DNA from: an uncultured Sulfurovum sp.
Lineage (GTDB): Bacteria; Campylobacterota; Campylobacteria; Campylobacterales; Sulfurovaceae
DNA: 43,980 bases
Assembly: GCA_902727895.1 (NCBI GenBank)
Contig: CACVAP010000017.1
Span: forward strand, 1-43,980
Reading direction: 5' to 3'
The notes under the pieces: generated by a model
The model's database searches: none
The model's input: only the letters and a program-made list of their open reading frames with translations
Told to the model about the DNA's origin: nothing
Part shown: one piece after another, positions 1 to 15,308 of the stretch
Layout of the letters: every line of letters starts with the position of its first letter
Numbering within the stretch: position 1 is the first letter of the stretch
Position numbers and translations under genes: made by a program

Positions 1-1716
1 TAACGAGATATTGTCGAAGTCTCCACCAGCTGAGGTAAAGAGGGTAATTCCTAATAACTCATTGTCTGGTTCAAGAATTCTAAGTTTCTCTTCAATATTT
101 ATTTTATAGTGTACAAAAGAACCATCTTTAGTATCTAAGTAGTAGTCAGTTGGCCCAGGGTGGTTATGAAGATAACCATCTAGCGTCATTGGATCTGTAG
201 GAACTGCATTACCACTAAAATCATTACGACCATTAGTCATGTGATTCATGTAAGAAGAAAAGATAATTCTTCGATTACCATTGGCAGTTTTTAGTTTTAC
301 CCCAAAGTTACCAACATGTGAGGCTGTTCCAATTCTTGTATCTAGTACTAAGTATCTCAATTTTTTATCAGGGTTATTAAAGGAAAAGTAAGAGAAGTCT
401 CCCCTTTGAGCGCGCACTGAATGTGCACTTCCTTCTGCGCCGACATTAATGAGGGAAACAGGTGTACCATTATGGAACCATTCCTGCTGGAAACCATTTT
501 CAGGGTTTTCAGCATTTTCATAGTGAATAGTAGTCGCTTCTACATCTTGTACCGTAAAGTTAATGGTTTTTCTATAAGATGTTGCAAAGTAAGCACGAAT
601 TTCATAATTACCAGGAAGTAGCCCATCAAAGTTGAGTGTACCAGATACAGAACTTTGTGCATATTTCCATTGAATTGCATCTTCATGCTCATGACCTGAG
701 CCTGCTGTAAAGACACCAATCCAGTCACTACCTGTTCCACGCATTTTATCAAAGTCAACATGTATTAATTCTTGTGGATCATAAACTTCTTTATGACTCG
801 TTAAAACAACTTCTGTATTTTCAACAGAAAAAGCATGACTGGCTTCTATGTTGTATGAATTGTTAAAGAATGCACGTACTTCATAATCTCCTTCAGGCAA
901 AGCTTCAAATGTTTGGCTTCCAGATACGTTACTATTTGCCCATTCCCATTGAATTACATTAGCCCAATTACTCACACTTCCTGCTGGATAAATAGCTATC
1001 CAATCTTCTTCATTTCCTGACATATCATCAAATACAGTAACAATCTGTTCATCGTGTGAATAGGTGTCTTTGGTTGTTTCAATAGTTGCTACAACATTGT
1101 TAGCTGTAACAGAAAAAGGTTGGCTGGCTTCCATTATAAGTGAATTGTTAAAGAAAACTCTTGCTTCATAGTCACCCACGGGTAAACCTTGAAATGTTTG
1201 TGTTCCATTTATTTCAGCAGCTATCCATTCCCATTTAACCATGTTTTGCCATGCTGTAGTACTTCCAGCAGGATAGATTCCTATCCAGTCATTGGCATTA
1301 CCTGCCATATTGGCAAAGCTTGTCGTAACTAGCTCATTGAGTAAATATGTTTCTTTATCTGTTGTGACTGTTGCTGCAACAAGATTTGGCTCAACAGTAA
1401 ACTTTTTACTGGCTTCTAAAACAAATGAGTTATTATAGTAAGCTCTTATTTCATAGTCTCCTGCAGGCAAGGCATTAAAGGTAACAGTACCTGCTGCTAT
1501 GTCATCTGTCCAATCCCACTGAATCATGTTAGCCCAAGTATTCTCACTACCTTCTGCGTAAATTCCAATCCAGTCATCATTTAGTGATTCTAAGTCGCTG
1601 AAAGTTACAGTAATCTTCTGATTAGGGGTATAAGTATCTTTATTTGTTTCTACTGTAGCTGCATGAAGCATACTTATACAGAACAGTAAAAATATAGTTA
1701 TAAATCTGCGTGTCAT
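1..1716 (-). CDS. Secreted protein with four tandem beta-sandwich repeats (3' end outside window)
   Basis: This reading frame is open from an ATG at 1716 to the left edge (572 codons, no stop), so the C-terminus is missing. The first 19 residues (MTRRFITIFLLFCISMLHA) form a signal peptide. Four tandem units of about 94 residues follow, starting near 1656, 1374, 1092 and 810. Each opens with a segment like T-x-K-x-x-Y, then has a D-W-I-G-I-Y-x-A-G-S block, a Q-W-x-W/Y block, and a G-D/N-Y-E-x-R-A segment ending in an F-T/S-V strand. The pattern suggests an Ig- or SKICH-like all-beta fold. The last 180 visible residues are a different domain rich in Asn, Gly and aromatics, of unknown function. 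The gene lies at the end of the leftward polysaccharide arm, 107 bases after the acyltransferase, so it may be co-transcribed. An exported adhesin or enzyme-carrier role is a guess. Confidence 0.8.
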   Translation of the reverse strand, partial: MTRRFITIFLLFCISMLHAATVETNKDTYTPNQKITVTFSDLESLNDDWIGIYAEGSENTWANMIQWDWTDDIAAGTVTFNALPAGDYEIRAYYNNSFVLEASKKFTVEPNLVAATVTTDKETYLLNELVTTSFANMAGNANDWIGIYPAGSTTAWQNMVKWEWIAAEINGTQTFQGLPVGDYEARVFFNNSLIMEASQPFSVTANNVVATIETTKDTYSHDEQIVTVFDDMSGNEEDWIAIYPAGSVSNWANVIQWEWANSNVSGSQTFEALPEGDYEVRAFFNNSYNIEASHAFSVENTEVVLTSHKEVYDPQELIHVDFDKMRGTGSDWIGVFTAGSGHEHEDAIQWKYAQSSVSGTLNFDGLLPGNYEIRAYFATSYRKTINFTVQDVEATTIHYENAENPENGFQQEWFHNGTPVSLINVGAEGSAHSVRAQRGDFSYFSFNNPDKKLRYLVLDTRIGTASHVGNFGVKLKTANGNRRIIFSSYMNHMTNGRNDFSGNAVPTDPMTLDGYLHNHPGPTDYYLDTKDGSFVHYKINIEEKLRILEPDNELLGITLFTSAGGDFDNISL

Positions 1717-1823
1717 CTGTCATCCTTGTATTTTTATATGTTTTATAATATTATTTAACATGTAATTATATTATATTTTATTTAAAAAATCCTAAAGATA
1801 CACTTACTTTAAGATTAATAAAT

Positions 1824-2798
1824 TTATTTAGGGTAAAGAATCTTGTTAATATTGAAGTGATAAACTATTTTAATAATTATAGAAGTGATTATGAGAACTA
1901 GTAAAAATTTCACTATGCCTTCGGTAAAAGTTGTCCACTCATAAAAAAGGTTTAATGCTTGAATAATAAAAGGATGAATGGTAAAAATAGCCAAAGAATA
2001 TTTTCCAAACTTTGTAAAGAAGTTTATGTTTTTACTCCATGAAATAAGGGTAAAAAAGCTTAGAATCATAATAATGTCTTGTAAAATAAAATTAAAAGGA
2101 TTGTCCCAAATATTAGGAAAAATAGCAGATGCTAAAGAGAAGTCTGAACCGTAGGAAAGGTAAAGGCTTAAAAGAAAAAGACTACTTACAAGCCAACTAG
2201 GATATTTTGTATAATTCACATTTTTATAGATATATTGAACAACAACACCAATAACAAATAGATAAATAGAGATATAGGAGCTTAATGGAAAATAGAAGAG
2301 ATAGGCTTTAGGTATAAATGGAATAAGTATATGTCCTAGAAACATGAGTGAAAAAAAGATAATTTTGATTTTTTTAGATAGGGTATTAAAAAGCATAATT
2401 AATAAAACGGTAAACATTAATGCAGGGAAAAACCATAAGATTCTAAAACCTGTATCTATTTTAAGTAGAGCTGAACTTCCTATAGCCCAAGAGCTTAGGG
2501 CTGAAATAGGATTAAATTGTTGTTCTAAAATACTATAGGCTAATAAGGCAATGAGAAAAAATATGGTGTATGGTATGTAGATACGTTTTAGATTCTTTTT
2601 AATAGTTTTGTAGTTTAAAGTATCGTTATTAAATAAAAATGGAAGTAGTAAAAATGAAACAACATGAAAAGAATAAAGGGTGGAATGAAGAGAACCAACC
2701 TGTTCTAGAAGTTGTGAAATATGTCCAAAAACTATGAGTAGAATAAGCAGACCTTTGAATCGGTCTGTTTCTTGAAAGGTGAGAGTATTAGAGCTCAA
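1824..2798 (-). CDS. Acyltransferase-3 family membrane protein
   Basis: This is a multi-pass membrane protein with many hydrophobic segments. It opens with the family hallmark D-R-F-K-G-L-L-I-L-L-I-V-F-G-H, whose His is the conserved acceptor-site residue of acyltransferase-3 (NodX/OafA-like) enzymes. Such proteins O-acetylate or otherwise acylate sugars of surface glycans at the inner membrane. Its place in a polysaccharide locus fits. Start choice: an ATG at 2876 would overlap the preceding gene by 89 bases and add a polar leader absent from the family. A TTG at 2798 overlaps by only 11 bases and places the hallmark near residue 8, so I prefer it (324 aa), although its ribosome site is weak. 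The acyl donor and target cannot be read from the sequence. Confidence 0.8.
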   Translation of the reverse strand: MSSNTLTFQETDRFKGLLILLIVFGHISQLLEQVGSLHSTLYSFHVVSFLLLPFLFNNDTLNYKTIKKNLKRIYIPYTIFFLIALLAYSILEQQFNPISALSSWAIGSSALLKIDTGFRILWFFPALMFTVLLIMLFNTLSKKIKIIFFSLMFLGHILIPFIPKAYLFYFPLSSYISIYLFVIGVVVQYIYKNVNYTKYPSWLVSSLFLLSLYLSYGSDFSLASAIFPNIWDNPFNFILQDIIMILSFFTLISWSKNINFFTKFGKYSLAIFTIHPFIIQALNLFYEWTTFTEGIVKFLLVLIITSIIIKIVYHFNINKILYPK

Positions 2799-3618
2799 TC
2801 TCGTGCCATGCTTGGGTATTGCACTCTCTAAAGGAAGTGAGTGCTTGGTCAATTTCATAAGACCAATGAAGAACAATAGGGTGAATAGTTGCAGTGGTAT
2901 GAGTTTGACTATAGATGTCTACCCCTAAACGTACTCTTTGGTATTCATGAAACTGTTCTGAAAATGAGACAAATAGTACATTGGTGTCTGATTTCTGATG
3001 TAGTCTATCGTTAGCAAATTTAGCAACCATGTCTAAAAAAGAAGTTAAAATTAATCCACAACGTGGGATAATTTTTCCATCATCATTGACAAATCCTGCT
3101 GCTAAATCGTGTTTATACTCATCATCTTTTAGAAAAGCTTTACCATCAATATTAATAAAGCTGTCAGCAAGCTTTTCATTTTTTTTGAGGGCTTTGAAGG
3201 CTCTGTTTTTTAGATTACGTTCAGAAACTAAACGAATAGACTCTGAGCGAATGTATTTTTGTCCTTCAACCATTTCATCAATGAACTCTTCAGCAGTAAC
3301 CATGGCATCTTCATCTAAGTTATTGAGTAAAATAGTTGGAATAATTTTAAATTTATGTTGATGCTCTTGGATTATTTCTCGACAAAGTTCATTCGCAAAA
3401 CTCATATTTCTTTTTGCCCATACTTTATTTTCTTCTTCTATAGGTAAAGAAAAATGTGCAATTTCAAGAACAATAACCATAGGTTCTTGTCTTTGTTGAA
3501 GTTGTTTATTAATGAGATTTTTTAGAGCAGCAAGTTTAGTACTTAACCACTCCTCATAGCTTACGGTTGGAGCCGAATAGTTTTTTTCATTAGTGGGTGT
3601 GAGACAGACTTCTATAAT
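2788..3618 (-). CDS. Putative GT-A-like glycosyltransferase (rhamnosyltransferase-like), probable ATT start
   Basis: The first in-frame ATG is at 3480, but clear coding sequence extends upstream to 3618, directly after the stop of the previous gene and in the same frame. There is no ATG, GTG or TTG between 3618 and 3480. An AAAGGA ribosome site (spanning the upstream stop region) sits about 3 bases before an ATT codon at 3618-3616. The added residues contain Y-E-E-W-L followed by L-I-N-K-Q and then V-I-V-L-E. This resembles the start of putative rhamnosyltransferases, and N-L-D-E-D-A-M-V further on could be their D-x-D-D-A metal motif. The length (277 aa with the ATT start) suits that family. 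The family call is weak, but a sugar-transfer role fits the context. Readthrough of the upstream TAA is the alternative to ATT initiation. Confidence 0.55.
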   Translation of the reverse strand: MIEVCLTPTNEKNYSAPTVSYEEWLSTKLAALKNLINKQLQQRQEPMVIVLEIAHFSLPIEEENKVWAKRNMSFANELCREIIQEHQHKFKIIPTILLNNLDEDAMVTAEEFIDEMVEGQKYIRSESIRLVSERNLKNRAFKALKKNEKLADSFINIDGKAFLKDDEYKHDLAAGFVNDDGKIIPRCGLILTSFLDMVAKFANDRLHQKSDTNVLFVSFSEQFHEYQRVRLGVDIYSQTHTTATIHPIVLHWSYEIDQALTSFRECNTQAWHEIEL

Positions 3619-5358
3619 TTATCCTTTAGATTTTTTTGAGGTAAAATGTTCATACCAAAGTTGGAAAATAAATATTCTCCATAGTTTATATTTATAGGCA
3701 TCATTGCCAGCATAAAATTGATTTCGAATGTTGAGTATAGAGGCAGTATAAAAGATATTATCTTTATCTAACCTTTCTTTATTAATTTGTGAATATAAAA
3801 TTTCTTTAAGTTCATTTTTCATCCATGAGCCAAAAGGAATATTAAATCCACATTTTGGACGTTCTATAAGTTCTTTTGGAATATATTGATAGGCAATTTC
3901 CTTGAGTAGATATTTTTTAGTTCCGTTCTTAATTTTAATACTAGAAGGTACTTTTGCCATGTAATCTACAAGTTCTGTGTTTAGATAAGGAGTTGAAAGT
4001 TTTATGTTTTGATGGTTCATTGAGGCATAACTTTTAATCAATTCTCCATCAACCATAGTGGTTTTAAAATAAGTCCCAATGATTTCATCAACCGACTCTG
4101 CTGAACCTTGAAAATTGATTTTATCAAAACTTGTTAAGATAGGTTTATTATAATCTTTTATATGTAAGTGTAGCTCTTTTTCTAAAAATAGTGTATTTCG
4201 TGCTTGTATCATTTGTGGAATATTTTTAGCCAAAAGAATTTTCATTAACTTATTGTACTTGTTGGGAAAGTTGTTGTGGTTTTTTAAATAAGGAATTTTA
4301 TCTATAGGAACTTTTTTTAAAGGCTGGGCGATAAACTGCTTAAGTAAGTAAGGAACTTTTTTGAGTCGCTCAAAGGTATGCACATCTGCAGCTGTTGCAA
4401 ATACCTCATCCCCACCATCTCCTGCTATAAGATTGTCAATATTATTTTTTTTAAGAAGTTGAGCTGTTAGCATGGTAGGAGAAGAAGCATGATCTGCAAA
4501 TGGTTCATCATATACTTCACATATTTTAGGAATAAGCTCTAACGCATCTTTAGCTGTAAAATAATGTTCATTATGATTGGTACCTAAATGTTTAGCAACC
4601 TCTTTAGCATAGGGAGCTTCATTCATCTCATTATGATGAAACCCAATGGTAAAAGTATTGATTTTTGTATTACTTTGTGCTTGTGCAATGGCGACAAGGG
4701 TAGAACTATCATATCCTCCACTAAGTGCAACTCCATACTGAGTATTGCGAGTATTTTGTGCAATACTACTTTTTAAAAGCTCATGGGCAGTATAAAGGGT
4801 TTCTTTCTCATTACTTATATGCTTTTCTTGATTGTAACAGGACTCTAATTTCCAATAATTATGAGAGGAGTAGCTAGTTGTATTTATATCACATAGAATA
4901 TATTCTCCTGACTGAACCTTGTAACAGTCCTTGAAAATAGTGTTAGGTTGAAGCACAAATCCAAACTGTAAATAGTTTGCCAAAGAATTAGGATTAATCG
5001 TTAATTGAATCTCTTCTGTGTTGTCAAAATCTTGCAGATGCGTACCAAAAACAAAACTTTCATGACCCTGAGAATAGTAAAGAGGTTGTATCCCAATTTT
5101 ATCTTTAGCAATAAAGAGTTGTTTTTTTTCTTTGTCATAAATAATTAAAGAGAAGCTTCCCTCTAATTCTTGTAAAAAGGTTATTCCTTTTTCTTCATAG
5201 GCTTTAGCCAATAGTTCAATTTTATTTATACTATTAAATAAAGTCCCATTAAAGAGTAAGTAAAATTTTTCATTATCTATAATATTGATATTTTTTGACT
5301 TATTTAGTAGTAAAAGTTCTTGAGTTTTATAATTAATAGTTGCTAAGAATGTTTGCAT
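3619..5358 (-). CDS. Asparagine synthetase-like protein lacking the glutaminase cysteine
   Basis: The protein has 579 residues and both domains of glutamine-dependent asparagine synthetase, but starts M-Q-T-F instead of M-C-G-I. The Cys2 nucleophile that hydrolyses glutamine is therefore absent. The synthetase half is well kept: the ATP-binding loop A-L-S-G-G-Y-D-S-S lies near residue 212, and G-D-G-G-D-E-V-F follows about 100 residues later. It ends in the usual L-W-Y-E-H-F-type tail. It could still adenylate a carboxylate and use free ammonia or another amine. It is close to the complete AsnB at 8956 and abuts the next synthetase-like gene with TAA directly followed by ATG. Homologues in polysaccharide loci are thought to amidate uronic acids or related sugars; that role here is inference. 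Confidence 0.88.
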   Translation of the reverse strand: MQTFLATINYKTQELLLLNKSKNINIIDNEKFYLLFNGTLFNSINKIELLAKAYEEKGITFLQELEGSFSLIIYDKEKKQLFIAKDKIGIQPLYYSQGHESFVFGTHLQDFDNTEEIQLTINPNSLANYLQFGFVLQPNTIFKDCYKVQSGEYILCDINTTSYSSHNYWKLESCYNQEKHISNEKETLYTAHELLKSSIAQNTRNTQYGVALSGGYDSSTLVAIAQAQSNTKINTFTIGFHHNEMNEAPYAKEVAKHLGTNHNEHYFTAKDALELIPKICEVYDEPFADHASSPTMLTAQLLKKNNIDNLIAGDGGDEVFATAADVHTFERLKKVPYLLKQFIAQPLKKVPIDKIPYLKNHNNFPNKYNKLMKILLAKNIPQMIQARNTLFLEKELHLHIKDYNKPILTSFDKINFQGSAESVDEIIGTYFKTTMVDGELIKSYASMNHQNIKLSTPYLNTELVDYMAKVPSSIKIKNGTKKYLLKEIAYQYIPKELIERPKCGFNIPFGSWMKNELKEILYSQINKERLDKDNIFYTASILNIRNQFYAGNDAYKYKLWRIFIFQLWYEHFTSKKSKG

Positions 5359-6840
5359 TTAATTATCTCTTTTTATATATTTATTTTTATTATACCAAGT
5401 ACTAATTAGATAAAGTCGTTGAATTAGTATACGACTTTTTTTGTTACTATGACTGTCTTTAAATAGTTTGGTTAACAATTTATTTATAGTATTTTCATTC
5501 CAAAGTCTACTATGAATTATTTCATCAGTTACTTCTTCTTTCATCACTTCTAAAATGGAAAAAAAGTCAAAAGAAAATGCTTTTTTACCAAGTTTATCAG
5601 AGTCTAATCCAATTTTATCTTTAAGAATTTTTCGTAAAATAAGTTTGTTTTTTAACTTGCGCCTATCAAAAAGATATTTTTCTGGTACTTTAGTAAAGTA
5701 GGCTGCAACTTCAGTATCACACCATGGTAGTATAAGGTTTGCATTGTTAAGCGAAGCAAGATTTCGTACTTTTCTAATAACCCTATCTGACTCTACAAAG
5801 GATCCCCACGTATCAGCTCTAATATCAAGGTAGTCCCAATCTTTTCGTTCTTGCGTAGATGCTTTCCAATGGGGGTAGACACTGGAAGCTTTTGAAAACA
5901 ATTTTTTACTATCAGAGAAAGAGAAACCACTTAGTCCAGCCCATTCACTTTTAGTAAGCGTAATATTTCGTAATTTATTGGTTGAACTTAAGGTATCGGT
6001 AATCTTTCTAAATTGATGTAAATTAGAGAAGAACTTTTGATGACGATATTCTGCTTGGCTTGGGATATGTCCTATATAGACATCATTGCCACTTCCATCT
6101 ATAATATTACTATGCTTAAATTCAATTTGCGTTTCATAGATTGGATAAGCAAGGGTGACATTATCAATGGAAGGAAGAGGTATATTTTCAAAATAGCTGT
6201 GAATACTTTGAATATGTTGGGGTAGGATTTTTTTTGGAATATAAAGCTTTTGATGTTTAAAGCCTAATTTCTTAGCTATTTTTTCTGAAATTTCACTTTC
6301 ATCATTCTCATTATTACTTTGATGGGTAATACAAGTAATATTGTTTTGATAACCAGCTTCTGCTAAAGCCAGTGCTATCATGTTACTGTCTTTCCCTGCA
6401 CTGTGAAAAAGATAGGAGTCTTGTTGAATATCGAGTGTAGAGAGTGTTGCCTTTGTTAATAACCCTAGGATATATTTTTCATCAATATCCATTTCTTTTT
6501 TACGTTCCTCATTTTTAAAAGGGAACTTATGAGAGAAGCTCAGTTCAATAGTATTATTTTTACTTTCTACTTTTGCTATATCTCCTATACCTACAATAAA
6601 AATATTTTCATAAACAGTATGAGGTAAAGGTACTATTCCTGACTGTAGAAGAAAAGAGATACTTTCATCTCTTACTTGTAAAGGGGTGATTACTTCTGGA
6701 TGTTCTAATAATACTTTAATAGATGTACCGTATAAAAGGTGTTTCTTATCGCTTGATAGATAAATATAGACAGGAAACTGAGCTGCTAAATCAGAACGAA
6801 TGGTTATACTGGGATTATTTAAACTATATTTGCTAATCAT
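5359..6840 (-). CDS. Degenerate asparagine synthetase-like protein
   Basis: This 493-residue protein is a more divergent member of the asparagine synthetase family. The N-terminal hydrolase domain is reduced to its second half (segments such as P-V-Y-I-Y-L and L-L-Y-G-T-S), with no catalytic Cys. The ATP loop is altered to S-A-G-K-D-S (residues 147-152) from the usual S-G-G-x-D-S. The D-G-G-D-E-V-F block has become D-G-S-G-N-D-V-Y. PP-loop chemistry may survive with a changed substrate, or the protein may be a partner for the neighbouring synthetases. The start overlaps the flippase stop by 8 bases and its stop abuts the next start, so it is firmly inside the operon. Confidence 0.8.
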   Translation of the reverse strand: MISKYSLNNPSITIRSDLAAQFPVYIYLSSDKKHLLYGTSIKVLLEHPEVITPLQVRDESISFLLQSGIVPLPHTVYENIFIVGIGDIAKVESKNNTIELSFSHKFPFKNEERKKEMDIDEKYILGLLTKATLSTLDIQQDSYLFHSAGKDSNMIALALAEAGYQNNITCITHQSNNENDESEISEKIAKKLGFKHQKLYIPKKILPQHIQSIHSYFENIPLPSIDNVTLAYPIYETQIEFKHSNIIDGSGNDVYIGHIPSQAEYRHQKFFSNLHQFRKITDTLSSTNKLRNITLTKSEWAGLSGFSFSDSKKLFSKASSVYPHWKASTQERKDWDYLDIRADTWGSFVESDRVIRKVRNLASLNNANLILPWCDTEVAAYFTKVPEKYLFDRRKLKNKLILRKILKDKIGLDSDKLGKKAFSFDFFSILEVMKEEVTDEIIHSRLWNENTINKLLTKLFKDSHSNKKSRILIQRLYLISTWYNKNKYIKRDN

Positions 6841-8116
6841 TTTTAATCTTTACTTTTTTATTTTTTTCTTCTTGAATTGCTTGGTTTACGTAGTACCATA
6901 AAAACAGAGTATGAACAAATATTATAATTAAAAAAGAGATAACTAAGCCCGTTTCTTTAAAAAAATAAATACTAAGTGGAACAATGAGTAAGTCAACTAA
7001 AACAGTATAGTTCATTACTCTAATAAATTCTTGTTTACGGTGCATAATAATAAGTGAATTTGAGAGTAAAGCCCCAAAAGGTAATATCAATATACGTAAT
7101 AAAAAGATGCTTAATAAAAAAGATATTTGTGCGTTATATTCACCATGTACTAGCTGAATTATCTCTTCAATAAAGTATTGAGAAAAGAGGAGAAAGACTG
7201 AGGCTAATGCTATGAAAATAAGTGATACTTTTTTAAGAAAATCAACATAAATCTCAAAATTATCTTTAAATTTTCTGGCTAAATAAGGATAAATAGTTTG
7301 GTTTATGGGATTGAAAACTCCTCCAATAGCCAACACAATCTTTTCTACAATAGAGTAATATCCAACGGCTACATTATTTGTCATTACTCCTAACAATACG
7401 ATATTTGTAGTGGTATACATAGAAACATAAAATCTTGACAAGAAGACATGCCAGCCATCAATAAGGTAATGGGTAATGGTTGCCCAATTTTGAAATTTAA
7501 AAGAGAGGTTAAATTGTTGTTTTATTAGAACGAGAGAAGCAATTCCTGCAATGATAGAACCTACTGAGAAAAATAGAGGTACAAGGTACGCATCATTTTG
7601 TTCTTGAACAAAAACAAAAATCGCAATGGTAAATATAAGTTTTGATAAAAAGTTTAGATAAGTAATGTATTTCATTCTTTCCATACCTTGAAAAAACCAA
7701 ACTGGAAATAAAAACTGCCCAATAACTGACCCAAAGGTTAAGAGATAGATTTCCCAGTGGGCTGAAAGTTTGTTAAAGCTAAATACAATAGCTGTTAAAA
7801 GAAAAAGACTTATGAGTAATAATAGAAACTTGATGCTCATAACTGAAGAGAATATTTCAGTGATTTTAAGATGATTTTTTCTGTGTATGGAAATCTCTTT
7901 TGTGGCTGTTAAATTAAATCCATAATCCGTTAAAATTCCAAAATAGGCAATGGTAGCTGTAGCAAATGCTAAAAGACCAAAATATTCGATACCTAGTACT
8001 TTTACCAAGTAAGGTAAAGTAAGAAGTGGTAGAATATAATTTCCAGCCTGTAATAAAGATAAAGATACAAAATTAGATTTCATTGTACTGTATTCTTTTT
8101 TTGTTGATTGACTCAT
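6833..8116 (-). CDS. Oligosaccharide flippase (Wzx-like, polysaccharide transport family)
   Basis: The protein has 427 residues with about twelve hydrophobic segments and the typical N-terminal pattern N-Y-I-L-P-L-L-T-L-P-Y-L, then Y-F-G-L-L-A-F-A and D-Y-G-F-N-L-T-A-T. These are standard in Wzx/RfbX flippases that move lipid-linked oligosaccharide units to the periplasmic face of the inner membrane. It is the first gene of the leftward arm, divergent from the methyltransferase at 8248, with promoters presumably in the 131-base AT-rich gap. Downstream it overlaps the first synthetase-like gene by 8 bases. An in-frame ATG at 8083 is an alternative start that would remove a polar leader. Confidence 0.9.
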   Translation of the reverse strand: MSQSTKKEYSTMKSNFVSLSLLQAGNYILPLLTLPYLVKVLGIEYFGLLAFATATIAYFGILTDYGFNLTATKEISIHRKNHLKITEIFSSVMSIKFLLLLISLFLLTAIVFSFNKLSAHWEIYLLTFGSVIGQFLFPVWFFQGMERMKYITYLNFLSKLIFTIAIFVFVQEQNDAYLVPLFFSVGSIIAGIASLVLIKQQFNLSFKFQNWATITHYLIDGWHVFLSRFYVSMYTTTNIVLLGVMTNNVAVGYYSIVEKIVLAIGGVFNPINQTIYPYLARKFKDNFEIYVDFLKKVSLIFIALASVFLLFSQYFIEEIIQLVHGEYNAQISFLLSIFLLRILILPFGALLSNSLIIMHRKQEFIRVMNYTVLVDLLIVPLSIYFFKETGLVISFLIIIFVHTLFLWYYVNQAIQEEKNKKVKIKND

Positions 8117-8247
8117 TTCTTAACTAATCCTAATTACATCATTTAATTTCTTTATAATATTAACACAAAATAATATAAAGTAATATAAAAAAAAGCTTAA
8201 ATATGTCATAATTCATCTTTAACTTAAGAAAAAATAAAGAGGTAATT

Positions 8248-8943
8248 ATGAGAGAAACACATACTAATGCAGATATGTCACACCAAAATGGAATTTTATA
8301 TAAAATAAGTGTTTTTTTTACATCATTAAAAAATAATGGCGTACTTCCTACTATTCGTAAAATTTCGCAGCGTATTGAATATAAACGAAAAGGCATCGAC
8401 TTTTCAACACAAAATATTTATGATTTAACGCGAACTGGAGAGTATCAAGAGCATGGTACAGCTTTGGTTTCTACCTCAATTGATTTTTTAACACAATTGT
8501 TAAATGATTTAGAAAAAGCTGTGGGAAAGCCAATAAATAAAGATGTTTTTGTGGATTATGGAAGTGGTAAAGGTGCTGCTATTATTCATGCTAAGCAACT
8601 GGGGTTTGAAAAAAGTATTGGCGTAGAGTTTGCTAAAGAATTGCATGACCAAGCTGAGCAAAATATAAAGAAGTTAAATTTAGAAAATGTTCACTCTTTA
8701 TATGCTGATGCGACTACTTATGTATTACCTAATGATATTTCTGTCATTTATTTATTTAACCCTTTTGATGAGGTGGTTATGACTAAGGTAATTGAAAACA
8801 TACAAAAACAACAAGAAAGCTTTGAAAGTGACGTTTATGTCATTTATGGTAATGCCTCTTGTACCGTACTTAGAGAAACATTTGAATTATTAGATGAACA
8901 AGTTTACCCCAGTGGTGCAAAAGCAGAATTTTATAAGATATAG
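8248..8943 (+). CDS. Class I SAM-dependent methyltransferase
   Basis: The central part carries a Rossmann methyltransferase signature: motif I V-D-Y-G-S-G-K-G-A-A, then G-V-E-F-A-K-E-L with the acidic residue that binds SAM ribose, A-D-A-T-T for the adenine-binding turn, and an N-P-F block after strand 4. The N-terminal 80 residues are charged and not recognised. The ATG is preceded by AGAGG at a spacing of about 6. A possible -10 box (CATAAT, 8207-8212) lies upstream. It is the first gene of the rightward arm and sits 12 bases before asnB. It may methylate a sugar or the product of the synthetases; the substrate cannot be inferred. Confidence 0.82.
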   Translation: MRETHTNADMSHQNGILYKISVFFTSLKNNGVLPTIRKISQRIEYKRKGIDFSTQNIYDLTRTGEYQEHGTALVSTSIDFLTQLLNDLEKAVGKPINKDVFVDYGSGKGAAIIHAKQLGFEKSIGVEFAKELHDQAEQNIKKLNLENVHSLYADATTYVLPNDISVIYLFNPFDEVVMTKVIENIQKQQESFESDVYVIYGNASCTVLRETFELLDEQVYPSGAKAEFYKI

Positions 8944-8955
8944 GGGAAGAAGTTA

Positions 8956-10851
8956 ATGTGTGGAATAGTAGGTTTTTGTGATTTTACAAAGAAGAGTAGG
9001 GCTGTTGAATTAGCAGCAATGACAGAGGTTATTGAACATCGTGGACCAGATGCGAAGGGAGAGCTTTTTCATGACTTGGCAGGGGTAAATATAGGTTTAG
9101 GACATAGACGACTTTCTATCTTAGATCTTTCATCTGAGGGTGTGCAACCGATGGTTTATGAGAACTTAGAGATTATATATAATGGAGAGGTATATAATTT
9201 TAAAGAAGTAAGAAATGAACTTAAAACAGAAGGCTATGACTTTAATTCACAAAGTGATACAGAAGTTATACTCAAAGCTTATCATTGTTGGGGATTGGAT
9301 GCTCTTGAAAAATTTAATGGTATGTTTGCCATAGCGATTCTTGATACAAAAAATGAAAGCTTAACCCTTATACGTGACAGAGCAGGAGTAAAACCTCTTT
9401 ATTGGTATTTTAAAGAAGGATTATTTCTTTTTGCTTCTGAGTTAAAGAGTTTTCATGAACATCCAAATTTTCAGAAAGTTATTAACAAAGATGTTTTAGC
9501 TCAATACTTACAACATGGTTATGTTTTACAGCCTTATTCTATTTTTGAAGATACAGAGCAACTAGATGCTGGATATTCTTTGCTCTTAGATTTAAAAACT
9601 CAAGACATTGAGAAAAAACAATATTGGTCTGTTTCAGAGTTTTATGAAAAGCCAAAACTAATTTTAAATGATGATGAGGCAGTTTCTCAGACAGAAGAGA
9701 TTTTAAAAAAATCCTTTGATTATCGAATGGTGTCAGATGTTCCCGTAGGTACATTTTTAAGTGGTGGATATGACAGTTCTTTGGTCACAGCATTACTTCA
9801 AGCTGACCGTGAAGAGAAGATAAATACCTTTACCATTGGATTTAAAGAAAAAGGTTATGATGAAGCCCCACATGCAAGAGCTGTGGCAAAACATTTGGGT
9901 ACTAATCATACGGAGTATTATTGTACACACAAAGATGCTTTGGAAGTTATTCCTAAGTTAGCAGAAATTTATGATGAACCTTTTGGGGATGCTTCTGCCA
10001 TTCCTACAGTTTTGGTTAGTCAGTTAGCACGTGAAAAAGTAAGTGTTTCATTAAGTGCTGATGGTGGAGATGAAATATTTGCAGGTTACTCAGCCTATGA
10101 TAACCTTACAAATATCGAAAATAAATTTCAAAAAATTCCTTATACTTTAAGACGTACTGCTGTGGGCATTTTAAATATGGTTAATCCAGCACATGTTCCA
10201 TTTACAGATAATCAGTACAACTTTGAAATACGTTATGAAAAGATTAAGAAAATGTTATTGGCAGAGAATGCTGCTGAGCTTTTAGAACAGAGTTATGAGC
10301 AGTATTCACAAAATGAGTTGGATAAGCTTTTAATTAAAAAAATAAGTAAAATAAAAACAGGGTTTGATACAGACGTTTCTAAAATAACAAATAGTTTAGA
10401 TCAAATGTTAATGATTGATTATAAAACGTATATGGCAGATGATATCTTAACCAAAGTAGACCGAGCAACCATGTCCGTTGGTCTAGAAGGAAGAGAACCA
10501 TTTTTAGATACCAGTATTATTGAGTTTGCAGCACAGTTACCCAATGAAATGAAGTACCGTAATGGCGAAAAAAAGTGGGTGCTTAAAGAGATTACGCATA
10601 AGCATATACCCAAGGTAATGATGGATCGCCCTAAGATGGGTTTTTCTCCTCCTATTGCTGAATGGTTTAGAGATGAGTTAAAGTCTTACTTCTTAACTTA
10701 TTTGAGTTATGAACGTTTGGAAAAAGAAGGTTTGTTTAATCCTGATGAGGTTATTCGTTTACGTGATCAATACCTTGATGGAAAGAATGTTTCAGTACAT
10801 AGGCTTTGGTTTATCTTGATGTTTGAAATGTGGTATGAACGATGGATGTAA
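8956..10851 (+). CDS. asnB: Asparagine synthase (glutamine-hydrolysing), AsnB type
   Basis: This is a complete 631-residue enzyme. It starts M-C-G-I-V-G-F with the Cys2 nucleophile for glutamine hydrolysis, continues with H-R-G-P-D-A and H-R-R-L-S-I-L-D-L-S in the glutaminase domain, and has Y-N-G-E-V-Y-N. The synthetase domain shows L-S-G-G-Y-D-S-S (ATP pyrophosphate loop) and S-A-D-G-G-D-E-I-F-A-G-Y. All motifs for ATP-dependent amide formation with glutamine are present. Position inside a glycan locus, between a methyltransferase and a glycosyltransferase, suggests it may amidate a sugar acid rather than serve general asparagine supply. Glutaminase activity could also feed ammonia to the two relatives lacking it; that is inference. 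Confidence 0.93.
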   Translation: MCGIVGFCDFTKKSRAVELAAMTEVIEHRGPDAKGELFHDLAGVNIGLGHRRLSILDLSSEGVQPMVYENLEIIYNGEVYNFKEVRNELKTEGYDFNSQSDTEVILKAYHCWGLDALEKFNGMFAIAILDTKNESLTLIRDRAGVKPLYWYFKEGLFLFASELKSFHEHPNFQKVINKDVLAQYLQHGYVLQPYSIFEDTEQLDAGYSLLLDLKTQDIEKKQYWSVSEFYEKPKLILNDDEAVSQTEEILKKSFDYRMVSDVPVGTFLSGGYDSSLVTALLQADREEKINTFTIGFKEKGYDEAPHARAVAKHLGTNHTEYYCTHKDALEVIPKLAEIYDEPFGDASAIPTVLVSQLAREKVSVSLSADGGDEIFAGYSAYDNLTNIENKFQKIPYTLRRTAVGILNMVNPAHVPFTDNQYNFEIRYEKIKKMLLAENAAELLEQSYEQYSQNELDKLLIKKISKIKTGFDTDVSKITNSLDQMLMIDYKTYMADDILTKVDRATMSVGLEGREPFLDTSIIEFAAQLPNEMKYRNGEKKWVLKEITHKHIPKVMMDRPKMGFSPPIAEWFRDELKSYFLTYLSYERLEKEGLFNPDEVIRLRDQYLDGKNVSVHRLWFILMFEMWYERWM

Positions 10852-10852
10852 A

Positions 10853-11974
10853 ATGCAATTAGACAAACCAAAACGACTGGTAGGACTCATTCATGCTTTA
10901 GATGTTGGTGGAGCAGAGCGTATGATGATAACCATTTTGAATTATTTTCTAAGTGAAAACTTTGAAGTGCATTTAATTATTTTTGATAATAGAGGGGCTT
11001 TAAAAGATGATTTAAATGAAAACATAATTGTTCATGATTTACTCACTCCTTCTGTGATGAAAGGTATGCCTAAATGTTTACAGCAATTAAAAATCATAAA
11101 AGCAGACATTATTTTTACAGGTATTGGACATTTAAATATTGCGTTGGCACCATTTGTTTCATTGATGAGACTGTTTTTACCTCAGTCAAAATGGATTGCA
11201 AGAGAGACGAACATTGTAAGTTTACAAAATCAAAGTTCTAAGTATCCAAAGGTTTTTGACTTTCTTTATAAACATACCTATAGTAATTATGATGTAATCA
11301 TTGCCCAATCAGAAGACATGAAAGAAGACCTAGCAGAAAACTATTCTATTGTTGAAAAAGTTTTTGTTATTAATAACCCTATAGACCATGAGCGTGTTAC
11401 TGAACTTTCTAAGAGTGTAACTCCCTTTTCTTTTGATAAGAATAAAGTAAACCTTTTAACCGTAGCCAGACTCCGTGAAGAAAAGAGACATGATTTAATG
11501 TTGAAAGCCTTAGCCCTATTGTCAGATAAATATCATCTGACGATTGTCGGTGCTGGAGAAAAAGAAGCCTCTTTAAAAGAATTAAGTAAAAGTTTAAACC
11601 TAGAGAAACGGGTTACTTTTGAGGGGCAACAGTCTAACCCCTATACTTATATAAAAGAGGCAGACTTATTTTTATTGACTTCTCAAAGGGAAGGGTTTCC
11701 GAATGTATTACTTGAAGCAAATGTGTTAGGATTACCCATTGTTGCTTTTGCTTGTAAGGGAGGCATAACAGAAATCATTGAAGAAGGGGTCAATGGACGT
11801 TATTGTGATTTTGAAGATATTGAATGCTTAGCGAAAAAAATAGACGAAGCAAGTATGGACAATAGTTTTAATGAAGAAGTAATCATTAAGAGAACAATAG
11901 AAAAATATAGTAAAGATAGCATTTTAAATAGCTATAAAAACATATTTTATAATAGTCAATTGACTAAAGGTTAA
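10853..11974 (+). CDS. GT4-family glycosyltransferase
   Basis: This is a GT-B fold enzyme of family GT4. The N-terminal domain opens H-A-L-D-V-G-G-A-E-R, the usual acceptor-side loop. The C-terminal domain has V-A-R-L-R-E-E-K-R-H for the phosphate site and E-G-F-P-N-V-L-L-E-A, the E-x7-E nucleotide-sugar motif. A start at 10823 would overlap asnB by 29 bases. The ATG at 10853, one base after the asnB stop, gives a 373-residue protein starting just before the conserved domain, so I chose it. It presumably adds a sugar to the lipid-linked repeat unit on the cytoplasmic face. Donor and linkage are unknown. Confidence 0.9.
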   Translation: MQLDKPKRLVGLIHALDVGGAERMMITILNYFLSENFEVHLIIFDNRGALKDDLNENIIVHDLLTPSVMKGMPKCLQQLKIIKADIIFTGIGHLNIALAPFVSLMRLFLPQSKWIARETNIVSLQNQSSKYPKVFDFLYKHTYSNYDVIIAQSEDMKEDLAENYSIVEKVFVINNPIDHERVTELSKSVTPFSFDKNKVNLLTVARLREEKRHDLMLKALALLSDKYHLTIVGAGEKEASLKELSKSLNLEKRVTFEGQQSNPYTYIKEADLFLLTSQREGFPNVLLEANVLGLPIVAFACKGGITEIIEEGVNGRYCDFEDIECLAKKIDEASMDNSFNEEVIIKRTIEKYSKDSILNSYKNIFYNSQLTKG

Positions 11975-11977
11975 CTT

Positions 11978-13627
11978 GTGAATTTTAAACTACTCCTCAA
12001 TAATATATTGACTTTTTTTATACTTTTAATTTTACTAATGCTCATTCAATCAATGTTTAATCCCTTATCTGTAACAAAAGAGTCACTATTTCATTTTGAA
12101 CTTTTTGATTTAAGAGGTTTAGCAAAGGGAGGCATCTATGTATTCACTTATCTTTTAGCTGTTATTCCTTTATTTATACTGGTTAAACTCAAATCATTGA
12201 AGACTTTTTTAGCACTTTTATGTGTAGTTTTCATTTTTTTATCCATAGATTTTTTTATACAACTCTTAGGTGTTTCTCATGGTTTTTCTTACGATGAATA
12301 TACCTTAGCCATGAATGAAGCTGGTAATTATAAATATTTAATTACTTATCTTGATAGTATTGGAAAAACCCTAGTATTGGCAATGATTACGGTTCTAATT
12401 GTATATTTTATCAGACAAAAGATTAGCCACAATAATTTAACAAATCGGTTTTTGTTTTTAGCTTTAGTGCCTATGTTTATTATTTATGTTGCTTGTTATA
12501 AAATCAATACTTTTAAATTAAGCTCTTATCCTGCCATGTTGAAAATTCCTAATATTGCTGTGGCTTATTTTCAGTTTTCAAAACCCATTACAAAACGTAT
12601 TTTAGAAAAAGACATAGAAGTAAAAAATGAAAGTAAATTTAGAAACATAGTATGGATAATAGATGAATCGGTTACAGGCACATATTTGTCAGTAAATGGT
12701 TATGATAAAAAGACAACACCTTATTTGGAAAGACTAGATACGACAAGTTCTGATTTTGTTAATTTTGGAACGGTTAATTCTATTTCTAACTGTTCAGCAA
12801 ATTCAAATCTTTTTTTACGAATTGGTATGAATCCAAAGAAACATGAATTAGAAAATATCACTTCACTTCCAACGATCTTTCAATATGCCAAACGGGCAGG
12901 GTATAAAACGTGGTTATTTGATTCTCAAACGAGAAAAGACCACCTACAAAACCATTTAACCATTTATGACAAAGACAGTATTGATAACTTTGAAACCTTA
13001 GGTTCTGAAGTAGAGAGGGTACAGCGTGATGAAAGTTTTTTAAATAGAATGTTGAGTTTAGTTAATGATGGAACCTCTACGGATAAAAACTTTATAGTAC
13101 TGGTTAAGTATGGGGCTCACTTTCCTTATTTATTAACTTATGATCAAAAATTTACTTCATTTAAACCTGTATTGGAGAACTCTTATGGAGGGATGAATTT
13201 TGAGAATCGTGAGAAACAGCTCAATACTTATTTGAATTCACTCTATTTTAATGTGGATTTATATTTGAAAAAAATGTTAGAGAAAATTGATTTAAAAGAG
13301 AGTGCTATTTTTTATACCTCTGATCATGGACAAAATATTTTAGAAAGTGAAGGTTTATCCCGTCCTCATTGTAATAATGAAAATGTGGTTAAAAATGAAG
13401 TAAGCGTACCTCTTTTTTTATTTTCTAATAAAGCTAAAGAACTGTTTCCTAATAAAGAAAATAAATTTTATTCGCAAATTCAAATGTTTCCCACAACACT
13501 CTCTTTTTTAGGTTATTCAAGTGAAATAGTCAATGCCTATGGAAAAACTTTAAATGAAGGTTTTACTACAAGTACTGAGCGACAATACATACTCTCCTCA
13601 TCAAAAGAGTCAAAGGTTTATGAATGA
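11978..13627 (+). CDS. EptA/MCR-like membrane phosphoryl transferase (paralogue 1)
   Basis: The start is GTG with AAAGG 7 bases upstream. About five hydrophobic segments in the first 200 residues precede a periplasmic alkaline-phosphatase/sulfatase-fold domain. I-I-D-E-S (about 227-231) supplies the metal-binding Glu. S-V-N-G-Y-x(3)-T-T-P-Y-L matches the family. N-C-S-A-N-S-N (271-277) lies at the nucleophile loop. T-S-D-H-G-Q supplies Asp-His metal ligands. A G-A-H-F-P-Y block and a late P-H-C block match the substrate and zinc sites of phosphoethanolamine transferases. At the position of the catalytic Thr (fourth residue after the Cys) there is Ser276. It likely transfers phosphoethanolamine or a similar group to the glycan or lipid A. 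Overlaps the next paralogue by 4 bases (ATGA). Confidence 0.8.
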   Translation: MNFKLLLNNILTFFILLILLMLIQSMFNPLSVTKESLFHFELFDLRGLAKGGIYVFTYLLAVIPLFILVKLKSLKTFLALLCVVFIFLSIDFFIQLLGVSHGFSYDEYTLAMNEAGNYKYLITYLDSIGKTLVLAMITVLIVYFIRQKISHNNLTNRFLFLALVPMFIIYVACYKINTFKLSSYPAMLKIPNIAVAYFQFSKPITKRILEKDIEVKNESKFRNIVWIIDESVTGTYLSVNGYDKKTTPYLERLDTTSSDFVNFGTVNSISNCSANSNLFLRIGMNPKKHELENITSLPTIFQYAKRAGYKTWLFDSQTRKDHLQNHLTIYDKDSIDNFETLGSEVERVQRDESFLNRMLSLVNDGTSTDKNFIVLVKYGAHFPYLLTYDQKFTSFKPVLENSYGGMNFENREKQLNTYLNSLYFNVDLYLKKMLEKIDLKESAIFYTSDHGQNILESEGLSRPHCNNENVVKNEVSVPLFLFSNKAKELFPNKENKFYSQIQMFPTTLSFLGYSSEIVNAYGKTLNEGFTTSTERQYILSSSKESKVYE

Positions 13628-15255
13628 AATATTGGATTTTTTTAGTTTTTATTGTATTTTTTATTTTTGAGAATATATTTATTGAAGATATTTATATGAG
13701 AATGAACCATCTATTTAATAGTAAAGGTATCTATATCTCAGCCTATTATATTTTTGTAACTTTTGTAGGTTTTTTGAGTATAGCATTTTTATTTTTTATT
13801 AGAGAGAAGTTTTATTTCTTCTTAGCCATGACCCTACTGTTACTAAGTTATACTATTACACTGGTCTATAAACAGATTAATGGTACAGGGTTTACTTTAA
13901 ATGATTTAGCCATTGTTTTGAATGAAGCAGATGCCTTTGCCTTAGATGCCTTGATTACTTATGGTTCTTCTATTAAAGAAGCATTACTTATACTTGTATT
14001 TGTTTTAGTGTTTATATTTGTATTACGTAACGTTATTGTGAAAAACAAGATGTTTATTGGGATTAAGTATGTGATTGTGTCCTTTGTTGTGGCATTACTC
14101 TTGGCTTATTCTGTTTTTTATAAAACAACAGGGGGTACACAGACTCGACCAAACCTTATAAAAGTTTTGAATACAAGTATTTATTATGCTTTAAATAAAC
14201 TTTATTATGGGGAGAGAGAAGTGTTAGAAGAAAAAGCTCTTTTAGCATCAAAATATCAAAATATTATTTTAGTTGTTGACGAAAGTATAGGGGGAAAGTA
14301 TCTTTCTATTAATAGTTATGAAAAAGAGACGACTCCGTATTTAAAAAGTATTGAAAATCATTTTATTAACCTTGGATTAGCTTCTTCAGGGGCGAACTGT
14401 TCAGCTACGAGTAATCTTATTTTAATGAGTGGTATACAGTTAGAAGCCTTGCCTGATAAAGAGAATAGAACATTAAAAAAAGCAACAATTTTTCAATATG
14501 CAAAAAATTCAGGTTATAAAACACACTATATCTCGGGACAGGGATTAGGGTTAAAGTTTCAGAATCATATGAGTAAATATGATTTAAAATACATTGATAA
14601 CTTCTCACAATTAAAAGAGCCGTATCATCATAAAAGTATGCCCGAAGAAGATATTATCTTAGAGACTCAAAAAGTGTTAGCGAATTCAGAAAAAAACTTT
14701 ATTTTTATTGTTAAGCATGGTTCTCATTTTGAATGGGAAGATAGCTATCCGAAAGAAGAAAGATTTTTCTTACCTACACTAGAAGCTTCTGATGCTTTAT
14801 CTTTAGAGAAAAGAGAAGAAGCTTTGAATTCTTATTTAAATTCTATTAGATATAACGTTGATCTATTTTTTAAATATTTTTTGAAAGAGATTAACTTTTT
14901 TGATAGAGAAGATACGCTTATTATTTACACAGCAGATCATGGACAATCAATTTTAGAAGATGGACGAACTTCTACCCATTGTGACAGTACAAACCCTCCT
15001 TTATCACAAGGGATTGTTCCCTTGTTGTTGTTTACAAGTAAAGAGGATAAAGTATTTCGAGCAGTAGATTTTCAAATAAACAGTTATAACCATTACCAAT
15101 TATTTCCAACCATTCAAAAACTAATGGGTTATGAGGGGATTAAAGCACAAACACTTTTTGATAAAGTAACAGAGTCGCCTAGTCAAGTTTTTGTTTCAGG
15201 TGATATTTTTGGACGTGTCTCACTTCAAAGAAATGACATACAGTTTGAGAATTAA
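13624..15255 (+). CDS. EptA/MCR-like membrane phosphoryl transferase (paralogue 2)
   Basis: This protein is a tandem paralogue of the preceding gene with the same layout: about five membrane segments, then the sulfatase-fold domain. It has V-V-D-E-S, S-I-N-S-Y-x(3)-T-T-P-Y-L, N-C-S-A-T-S-N at the nucleophile loop (again Ser at the fourth residue after Cys), K-H-G-S-H-F-E-W, and T-A-D-H-G-Q followed by T-H-C-D. All metal-ligand positions appear intact, so both copies should be active. Divergence between the copies suggests two acceptor sites or two transferred groups. Translation is coupled to paralogue 1 by an ATGA overlap. A strong hairpin terminator follows. Confidence 0.8.
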   Translation: MKYWIFLVFIVFFIFENIFIEDIYMRMNHLFNSKGIYISAYYIFVTFVGFLSIAFLFFIREKFYFFLAMTLLLLSYTITLVYKQINGTGFTLNDLAIVLNEADAFALDALITYGSSIKEALLILVFVLVFIFVLRNVIVKNKMFIGIKYVIVSFVVALLLAYSVFYKTTGGTQTRPNLIKVLNTSIYYALNKLYYGEREVLEEKALLASKYQNIILVVDESIGGKYLSINSYEKETTPYLKSIENHFINLGLASSGANCSATSNLILMSGIQLEALPDKENRTLKKATIFQYAKNSGYKTHYISGQGLGLKFQNHMSKYDLKYIDNFSQLKEPYHHKSMPEEDIILETQKVLANSEKNFIFIVKHGSHFEWEDSYPKEERFFLPTLEASDALSLEKREEALNSYLNSIRYNVDLFFKYFLKEINFFDREDTLIIYTADHGQSILEDGRTSTHCDSTNPPLSQGIVPLLLFTSKEDKVFRAVDFQINSYNHYQLFPTIQKLMGYEGIKAQTLFDKVTESPSQVFVSGDIFGRVSLQRNDIQFEN

Positions 15256-15278: not shown

Positions 15279-15308
15279 AATACTATGATTCGACACATAG
15301 TATTTTTT
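15279..15308 (+). terminator. Rho-independent terminator of the rightward arm
   Basis: A perfect 9-bp inverted repeat (AATACTATG / CATAGTATT) with an 8-base loop is followed by a run of seven T. It lies 24 bases after the stop of the second phosphoryl transferase. It overlaps the last codons and stop of the converging glycosyltransferase gene, so part of that protein's tail sequence is shared with the hairpin. Confidence 0.8.

Follow-up and report, generated by a model that had tools for sequence, protein, structure and literature searches.

Loss of the glutaminase cysteine and a synthetase-site tyrosine in an AsnB-like protein encoded beside a gene of undescribed family in a predicted surface-glycan locus of an uncultured Sulfurovum

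We analysed a stretch of 43,980 nucleotides (hereafter the window) from an uncultured Sulfurovum sp. (GenBank assembly GCA_902727895.1, contig CACVAP010000017.1, positions 1 to 43,980 of the forward strand), in which three homologues of the asparagine synthetase AsnB, here called P1, P2 and P3, are encoded in a region that, judged by its genes, is a surface-glycan locus. The coordinates of all three open reading frames (ORFs) were confirmed, and all three products exceed the gathering cut-off of 21 bits for Pfam Asn_synthase PF00733 (248.5, 43.3 and 349.3 bits for P1, P2 and P3, respectively). In the whole assembly (2.96 Mb, 96.2% complete), a search with this family lists P1, P2, P3 and one further place at 23.5 bits. 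Directly downstream of P1 lies w2788, named like w8248 below after its position. G and L numbers denote genomes and loci, and f6 and f22 two other families of the same order. The features concerning these genes are as follows.

3619 to 5358, minus strand: P1, AsnB-like protein of 579 residues, without glutaminase Cys, ATP site kept, putative dyad Tyr replaced by Ala
4702 to 4722, minus strand: PP-loop SGGYDSS of P1, residues 213-219, placed by alignment
4390 to 4401, minus strand: FATA of P1, residues 320-323, the last two being G-Y in 26 of 26 comparators
5359 to 6840, minus strand: P2, strongly divergent AsnB-like protein of 493 residues with truncated glutaminase domain
6385 to 6402, minus strand: altered PP-loop SAGKDS of P2, residues 147-152, placed by alignment
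8956 to 10851, plus strand: P3, predicted canonical glutamine-dependent AsnB-type amidotransferase of 631 residues
2788 to 3615, minus strand: w2788, partner gene of P1, undescribed family, 275 residues from a conserved Ile codon (2788 to 3480 according to the ORF caller)
3613 to 3615, minus strand: ATA, candidate non-AUG start codon of w2788
3622 to 3627, minus strand: AAAGGA, Shine-Dalgarno-like, immediately ahead of the P1 stop codon

Active sites were compared in an alignment of Escherichia coli AsnB and its relatives, comprising 26 rows of the P1 clade, three rows of P2 and 26 comparators. Residue numbers are those of E. coli AsnB without Met, with the established roles assigned to C1, R49, N74, E76, D98, the PP-loop and K449. 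P3 holds C1, R49, N74, E76, D98, SGGYDSS, D351, E352, Y357 and K449, and its score against TIGR01536 (glutamine-hydrolysing AsnB) was 481.7 bits (cut-off 267.1), which together with these residues places it in that family. On the other hand, its score against TIGR03108 (WbpS/eps_aminotran_1) was 558.2 bits, under the cut-off of 816.9, and for this reason P3 was not filed there. It is 50% identical to AsnB of the E. coli O65 O-antigen cluster and had no match in viral contigs. These residues and scores mark P3 as a canonical AsnB-type amidotransferase that depends on glutamine; by analogy with WbpS-type enzymes it possibly makes a sugar uronamide, and it is perhaps the only asparagine synthetase of the cell.

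In window P1, Gln stands at C1, R49 has no counterpart, N74 is kept, and E76 and D98 are replaced by Thr and Lys, respectively; SGGYDSS, GDGGDE and K449 are retained. Both statements of the first-pass annotation on these proteins, that the AsnB at 8956 has every catalytic motif and that P1 lacks the glutaminase Cys while keeping its ATP site, thus hold. Across the 26 rows of the P1 clade, Cys1 and R49 were found in none (2 and 17 rows, respectively, being gapped there), E76 in 1, N74 in 6 and D98 in 9. Regarding the ATP site, SGGYDS, D351 and K449 were present in 26/26 rows and E352 in 25/26. A feature absent from the first-pass annotation is the loss of Tyr357: positions 356-357 read G-Y in all 26 comparators including E. 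coli AsnB, whereas they read T-A in window P1, with Thr at position 356 in 26/26 clade rows and Ala (25) or Gly (1) at position 357. In addition, P1 residue 430 (4069 to 4071, minus strand) is Tyr in 24 of the 26 clade rows and Asp in 25 of the 26 comparators; this Tyr may represent a catalytic tyrosine that has changed its place.

In PesC, an AsnB-like enzyme making amides and nitriles, the available text of a preprint describes a Glu363-Tyr368 dyad, of which Y368F lost all activity and E363A lowered it (PMC13060819). The same text finds the Glu-Tyr dyad in the five enzymes compared, and its Discussion names it a Tyr-Asp dyad (PMC13060819). E352 and Y357 would be the equivalents of these two residues. 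The P1 clade falls outside the class of AsnB-like proteins with a Glu-Tyr dyad, keeping Glu in 25/26 rows and Tyr in 0/26, and outside TIGR01536 as well (247.4 bits, under the cut-off of 267.1, with Cys absent from 26/26 rows, 2 of them gapped). Assignment of P1 as a lasso peptide cyclase (NF033535) was rejected at 131.1 bits against a cut-off of 525. With regard to beta-lactam or carbapenam synthetase, P1 matched the PDB sequences 1q15 (E = 5.8e-8) and 1jgt (E = 1.4e-7); in plasmids it gave 389 records, all below 60% identity (29.7% for the best among the matches listed), annotated as asparagine synthase or unlisted.

The two losses coincide. Tyr357 was present in 24/24 Cys-bearing rows and absent from 25/25 Cys-less rows other than P2 whose N-terminal end is intact; three rows cut at that end have Tyr (2) or Ala (1), and the three P2 rows lack both Cys and Tyr. 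In a survey of 13 further genomes (30 loci, two of which, L135 and L144, had no readable frame), G-Y was kept in 10 Cys-bearing genes (MCG, MCA or MCS; one already counted), and four new Cys-less genes (L138, L141, L146 and L147) all lacked the Tyr. Because the rows are related, we read this coincidence in the alignment as the history of one clade and not as many independent events.

A phylogeny, which the first-pass annotation had proposed as a check, places P1 in one Cys-less clade: in a tree of 51 rows, 25 Cys-less rows stand on one side and 26 Cys-bearing rows on the other, with a branch support of 100/100. This tree leaves out the three P2 rows, the cut rows L032, L043, L012 and L093, L034 with its altered 3' end, the near-duplicates L038, L036, L010 and L009, and the long-branch Cys-bearing L013, L017, L019 and L023. 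In a wider tree holding most of the rows left out, the Cys-less label needs three changes, two of which trace to L008, whose Cys was missed by the ORF caller, and to L012, cut by a contig end. Members of the Cys-less clade come from the genus of the window and from f6 and f22. Two of the genes from the 13-genome survey, L141 (G140:C17) and L147 (G218:C257), are Cys-less, Tyr-less AsnB-like genes that lie beside Cys-bearing ones and branch separately within the clade.

P1 is under purifying selection. Its ratio of nonsynonymous to synonymous substitution rates (dN/dS) was 0.14 and 0.21 in two unsaturated pairs (dS 0.24 and 0.65) and 0.19 in a dS-saturated pair. Other dS-saturated pairs gave 0.11 for P3, 0.05 for w2788 over 230 called codons, and 0.18 and 0.28 for P2 against its orthologues in G010 and Vibrio, respectively. 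The P1 genes of G019 (L057) and G003 (L034) look interrupted and changed at the 3' end, respectively, through assembly error or recent damage.

P1 is closely linked to w2788, whose homologues (n = 26) have an invariant PRCGLI stretch among other common features. The gene was found in 13 of 34 genomes of the genus and in 14 of 199 genomes sampled from the order, and across 397 genomes of the phylum its profile gave two matches, in its own genome and in one f6 genome. P1 lies directly upstream of w2788 in 13/13 loci of the genus (interrupted in G019) and adjoins it in 9/12 loci of f6, the two genes being 3.9-4.9 kb apart in the other three; over all loci they are adjacent in 22/27 and within 5 kb in 25/27. 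Searches of w2788 against Pfam, NCBIfam and PADLOC gave no match at E 0.001, single members gave weak, scattered matches in Pfam/NCBIfam (best E 0.006, to an inactive receiver domain, in 3 of 26 members, and 0.016), and the best E for its profile against PDB sequences was 0.12. A single-sequence AlphaFold2 model had a mean predicted local distance difference test (pLDDT) score of 49 and no Foldseek match at E 0.001 or better, and was not used. Plasmids and viral contigs held no match to w2788.

The ORF caller starts w2788 at 3480; homology with its relatives starts right behind the P1 stop codon. At the junction, in 12 of the 13 loci of the genus, AAAGGA and a TAA or TAG stop are followed by a single variable codon, by ATC (10 loci) or ATA (2 loci), and by GAA. 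The remaining locus, L109, has ATG at the start site, and 10/12 f6 loci (all except L086 and L093) have ATG one or two codons ahead of the same conserved Cys. ATG, GTG and TTG are absent from the first 31 codons of w2788 in the 12 loci, with CTG at codon 28 in two, and substitutions at the first, second and third positions of codons 2-46 numbered 1200, 802 and 1873, respectively, which is a coding pattern. With no standard start near, a Shine-Dalgarno-like motif upstream and coding from the Ile codon, w2788 has the sequence marks of a non-canonical start, and in the genus of the window it is probably translated from an AUC or AUA codon just behind the end of P1.

Production of w2788 as a P1-w2788 fusion through stop-codon readthrough is quite improbable in our judgement. 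The P1 stop codon and w2788 share a frame with one codon between them in most loci of the genus, as a fusion would have it; in L047, however, P1 passes the junction in a different frame and AAAGGATAANNNATCGAA is retained all the same, which argues against readthrough, and so do the ATG at the start site in L109 and the correspondingly placed ATG in 10/12 f6 relatives. Precedents for starts other than ATG, GTG or TTG are infC, with ATT in E. coli and ATC in Streptomyces, and sigR with GTC, where the available text gives such starts a regulatory meaning (PMC5472188). The candidate start of w2788 differs from these in that it is known from sequence alone, follows right after the end of a partner gene, and belongs to a gene whose product is not a translation or sigma factor. 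A candidate AUC/AUA start in 12 genomes of one genus would be a compact case for gauging the frequency of non-canonical starts beyond infC and sigR, and gene callers can clip some 31 to 70 residues off such proteins.

Regarding P2, the first-pass annotation had described a loss of half of the hydrolase domain and an altered ATP loop. The altered loop was found as SAGKDS in 3/3 orthologues, while the loss is larger than stated: P3 residue 205 aligns with P2 residue 85, so that about 120 of 205 glutaminase residues, approximately 60%, are missing. P2 also lacks E352 and Y357 and retains D238, D351 and K449; at 53.9 bits against TIGR01536 (cut-off 267.1) and with about 120 N-terminal residues absent, it falls outside that family. 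Its orthologues in G010 and Vibrio injensis (63% and 47% identical, respectively) have the SAGKDSN loop in common with it. The Vibrio orthologue came from one genome-contig scan reaching close relatives only, and the 21-kb stretch around it contains glycosyltransferase-like genes, with this orthologue as its sole AsnB homologue. P2 occurs in 2 of 34 genomes of the genus (in the window and, among the 33 others, in G010 alone), and in the 199 genomes sampled from the order its profile found the window alone at E 1e-15, with no strong match in the other 198. It stands far from P1 in the wider tree, so the notion of the three copies as a set does not extend to P1 and P2, and it has likely spread by horizontal transfer. 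A profile search of P2 against PDB gave a best E of 0.028, to a QueC PP-loop protein; a structure predicted from two sequences had a mean pLDDT of 37 and was not used, and plasmids and viral contigs held no match to P2.

Our preferred reading, held tentatively and a little short of even confidence, is that P1 is a glutamine-independent carboxylate-activating ligase working with w2788. Because the ATP site is retained and the pocket re-set, we favour activation of a carboxylate for another nucleophile. P1, as a descendant of AsnB, would activate the carboxylate with ATP and receive no ammonia from glutamine, and it would be one half of a two-gene unit whose other half, w2788, is encoded directly downstream. 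The carboxylate would presumably belong to a uronic-acid-type residue of the surface glycan, and the acceptor would be an amine or another nucleophile rather than ammonia; w2788 may bring or position this nucleophile or supply the missing proton relay, and its AUC/AUA start may hold its output low. An amidated glycan is a possible product. As for P2, it would be a third PP-loop enzyme from this superfamily, rare and with a role of its own. In a more far-reaching form, P1 and w2788 would represent a new class of two-protein ATP-dependent ligase, in which an AsnB scaffold without glutaminase and dyad Tyr is completed in trans by w2788 (as nucleophile or catalytic base) and unequal amounts of the two are kept via the conserved AUC/AUA start; this we consider unlikely.

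Several points weigh against the ligase reading. With the dyad Tyr lost, P1 may just as well have given up amide chemistry, and the equivalence of E352/Y357 with the PesC dyad is drawn from motif spacing. The adjacency of P1 and w2788 may come from shared regulation only. In two f22 loci w2788 is not beside a P1 gene, and P1 occurs without a visible w2788 in G004, where P1 is cut by a contig end, and in G003, where its 3' end is altered. The role given to w2788 is a guess, because its fold and family matches were not usable. Finally, the three neighbours of the P1 unit scanned in L082 are lipase-like, Suv3-helicase-like and methyltransferase-like, with no glycosyltransferase, and therefore the link to glycans may not be universal.

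The main rival, unlikely in our estimate and nevertheless serious, is that P1 is a pseudoenzyme that binds ATP and catalyses nothing, serving w2788 or P3 as a scaffold or regulator that senses nucleotides. It would account for the joint absence of the glutaminase nucleophile and the synthetase-site dyad Tyr and for the regular company of a second protein. However, the PP-loop, K449, D351 and E352 are retained in 25-26 of the 26 clade rows, and several positions are re-set to new conserved residues (Gly356 to Thr in 26/26, Tyr at P1 residue 430 in 24/26), a pattern suggesting a changed specificity rather than decay.

Division of labour by ammonia, in which P3 hydrolyses glutamine and P1 and P2 put the ammonia on other carboxylates, appears rather improbable. 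P1-clade genes are often near a Cys-bearing AsnB (in the window, G010, G013, G012, G030, G077 and others) or on one contig with one (G140, G218, G074 and G057), and free ammonia can be used by PesC, as by canonical asparagine synthetases, according to the available text (PMC13060819). Against this, three of the 13 genomes with w2788 outside the genus (G163, G174 and G196, 95%, 89% and 85% complete, respectively; neither L135 nor L144 is from these) have P1-type genes and no Cys-bearing AsnB homologue, although drafts may miss a gene; P2 in Vibrio has no partner within its stretch; and P1 has lost the dyad Tyr. Within the limits of the drafts, an obligatory supply by an AsnB glutaminase in trans is thus weakened, since these three genomes show Cys-less homologues only. 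Of the first-pass proposals, two copies without glutaminase function agree with the apparent lack of a working glutaminase site in P1 and P2, and the idea of one glutaminase supplying nitrogen to the others has lost ground. Since P1 and P2 are constrained and appear to lack such a site, the proposed variant joining another amine to a carboxylate stays a live reading. That P1 and P2 are functionless, decaying AsnB duplicates is very improbable: their lost catalytic residues and the damaged P1 copies in G019 and G003 would fit, and the idea is already contradicted by a P1 clade spanning three families of the order with dN/dS of 0.14-0.21 and the ATP site kept in 26/26 rows, and, for P2, by orthologues (63% and 47% identity) that keep its SAGKDSN loop, including the one from Vibrio.

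Among known systems, E. coli asparagine synthetase B shares with P1 and P3 the domain family, PP-loop, D351, E352 and K449; unlike it, P1 lacks C1, R49, E76, D98 and Y357, and P2 additionally lacks E352 and has SAGKDS. Carbapenam synthetase is an AsnB-family enzyme that forms an amide bond without glutamine-derived ammonia. To our knowledge, no partner like w2788 occurs in beta-lactam/carbapenam synthetase or lasso-cyclase systems, and P1 differs from these enzymes in lacking Tyr357 and in scoring under the lasso-cyclase cut-off. AsnB-type enzymes form AMP. In the Campylobacter jejuni HS:2 capsule, the amide-forming domain of Cj1438C joins serinol-P or ethanolamine-P to a glycan uronic acid in an ATP-driven reaction yielding ADP, as far as the available text describes it (PMC11800397); this kind of product is that proposed for P1, the comparison being by reaction and not by homology. 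Lactam and lasso enzymes of the AsnB family likewise form amide bonds without glutamine-derived ammonia, again in the available preprint text (PMC13060819). For uronamides, the available text reports that deletion of PGN_1234 or loss of WbqG, both AsnB homologues, abolishes their formation, and assigns WbpS the same role (PMC7468200). P3 resembles these three in its catalytic motifs and in a locus with Wzx and glycosyltransferase genes, a likeness drawn without an aligned WbpS sequence, and differs in scoring under the TIGR03108 cut-off; P1 and P2 differ in lacking the glutaminase nucleophile. Multiple AsnB homologues per polysaccharide cluster are already documented: the psc1 cluster of Rubrivivax gelatinosus has three genes labelled asparagine synthase (wbpS) in the available text (PMC3684757), and these are likened to the window copies by label alone. 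A literature search, with most subscription journals outside it, returned nothing evidently describing a Cys-less, Tyr-less AsnB branch with a w2788-like partner. The usual annotation of AsnB-type genes is asparagine synthesis, or uronamide synthesis where they lie in glycan loci. The P1 branch, from which the ammonia source and the Tyr essential in a relative are gone while the ATP site is kept and a partner of undescribed family is present, tests what an AsnB active site needs.

The surroundings of these genes comprise the following features.

1824 to 2876, minus strand: acyltransferase (Acyl_transf_3), true start uncertain, overlapping the end of w2788
6833 to 8116, minus strand: Wzx-type flippase, encoded on the strand of P2, P1 and w2788 and upstream of all three
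8248 to 8943, plus strand: w8248, class I methyltransferase-like protein with homologues close to the P1 unit of other species
10823 to 11974, plus strand: GT4 glycosyltransferase
11978 to 13627 and 13624 to 15255, plus strand: two adjacent EptA/CptA-like phosphoethanolamine transferase genes
15283 to 16443, minus strand: GT4 glycosyltransferase
16494 to 18800, minus strand: Wzz/BY-kinase-type chain-length protein

The minus-strand genes run in the order flippase, P2, P1, w2788 and acyltransferase, with flippase, P2 and P1 overlapping or gapless; on the plus strand the methyltransferase-like gene is followed by P3, GT4 and the two phosphoethanolamine-transferase-like genes, beyond which GT4 and the Wzz/BY-kinase-type gene lie on the minus strand. 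The assignment as a surface-glycan locus was made because a flippase, glycosyltransferases and a Wzz-like protein sit there. Nucleotide-sugar dehydrogenase PF03721 has four places above its cut-off in the assembly, and uronic acids are therefore plausible. Homologues of w8248 lie on the same stretch as P1 in 8/15 loci of the genus and 5/12 loci of f6, contig ends limiting both counts. Promoter-like sites within 1700-9200 numbered 41, against 39.4 expected, which is chance level.

The two EptA/CptA-like genes at 11978-15255 differ from each other, and G010, G004, G032 and G033 have a homologue of at least one of them near P1. At 1-1716 on the minus strand, a secreted-looking protein cut by the contig end has repeat units with a spacing of 285 nt (95 residues), and segments homologous to it were found in related glycan loci. 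Further along the plus strand, a 729-residue protein at 25308-27497 has an NB-ARC-like ATPase, TPR repeats and a C-terminal SEC-C motif, and its gene adjoins that of a 430-residue protein at 27536-28828, which matches the PADLOC candidate defence family PDC-S01 strongly (368 bits).

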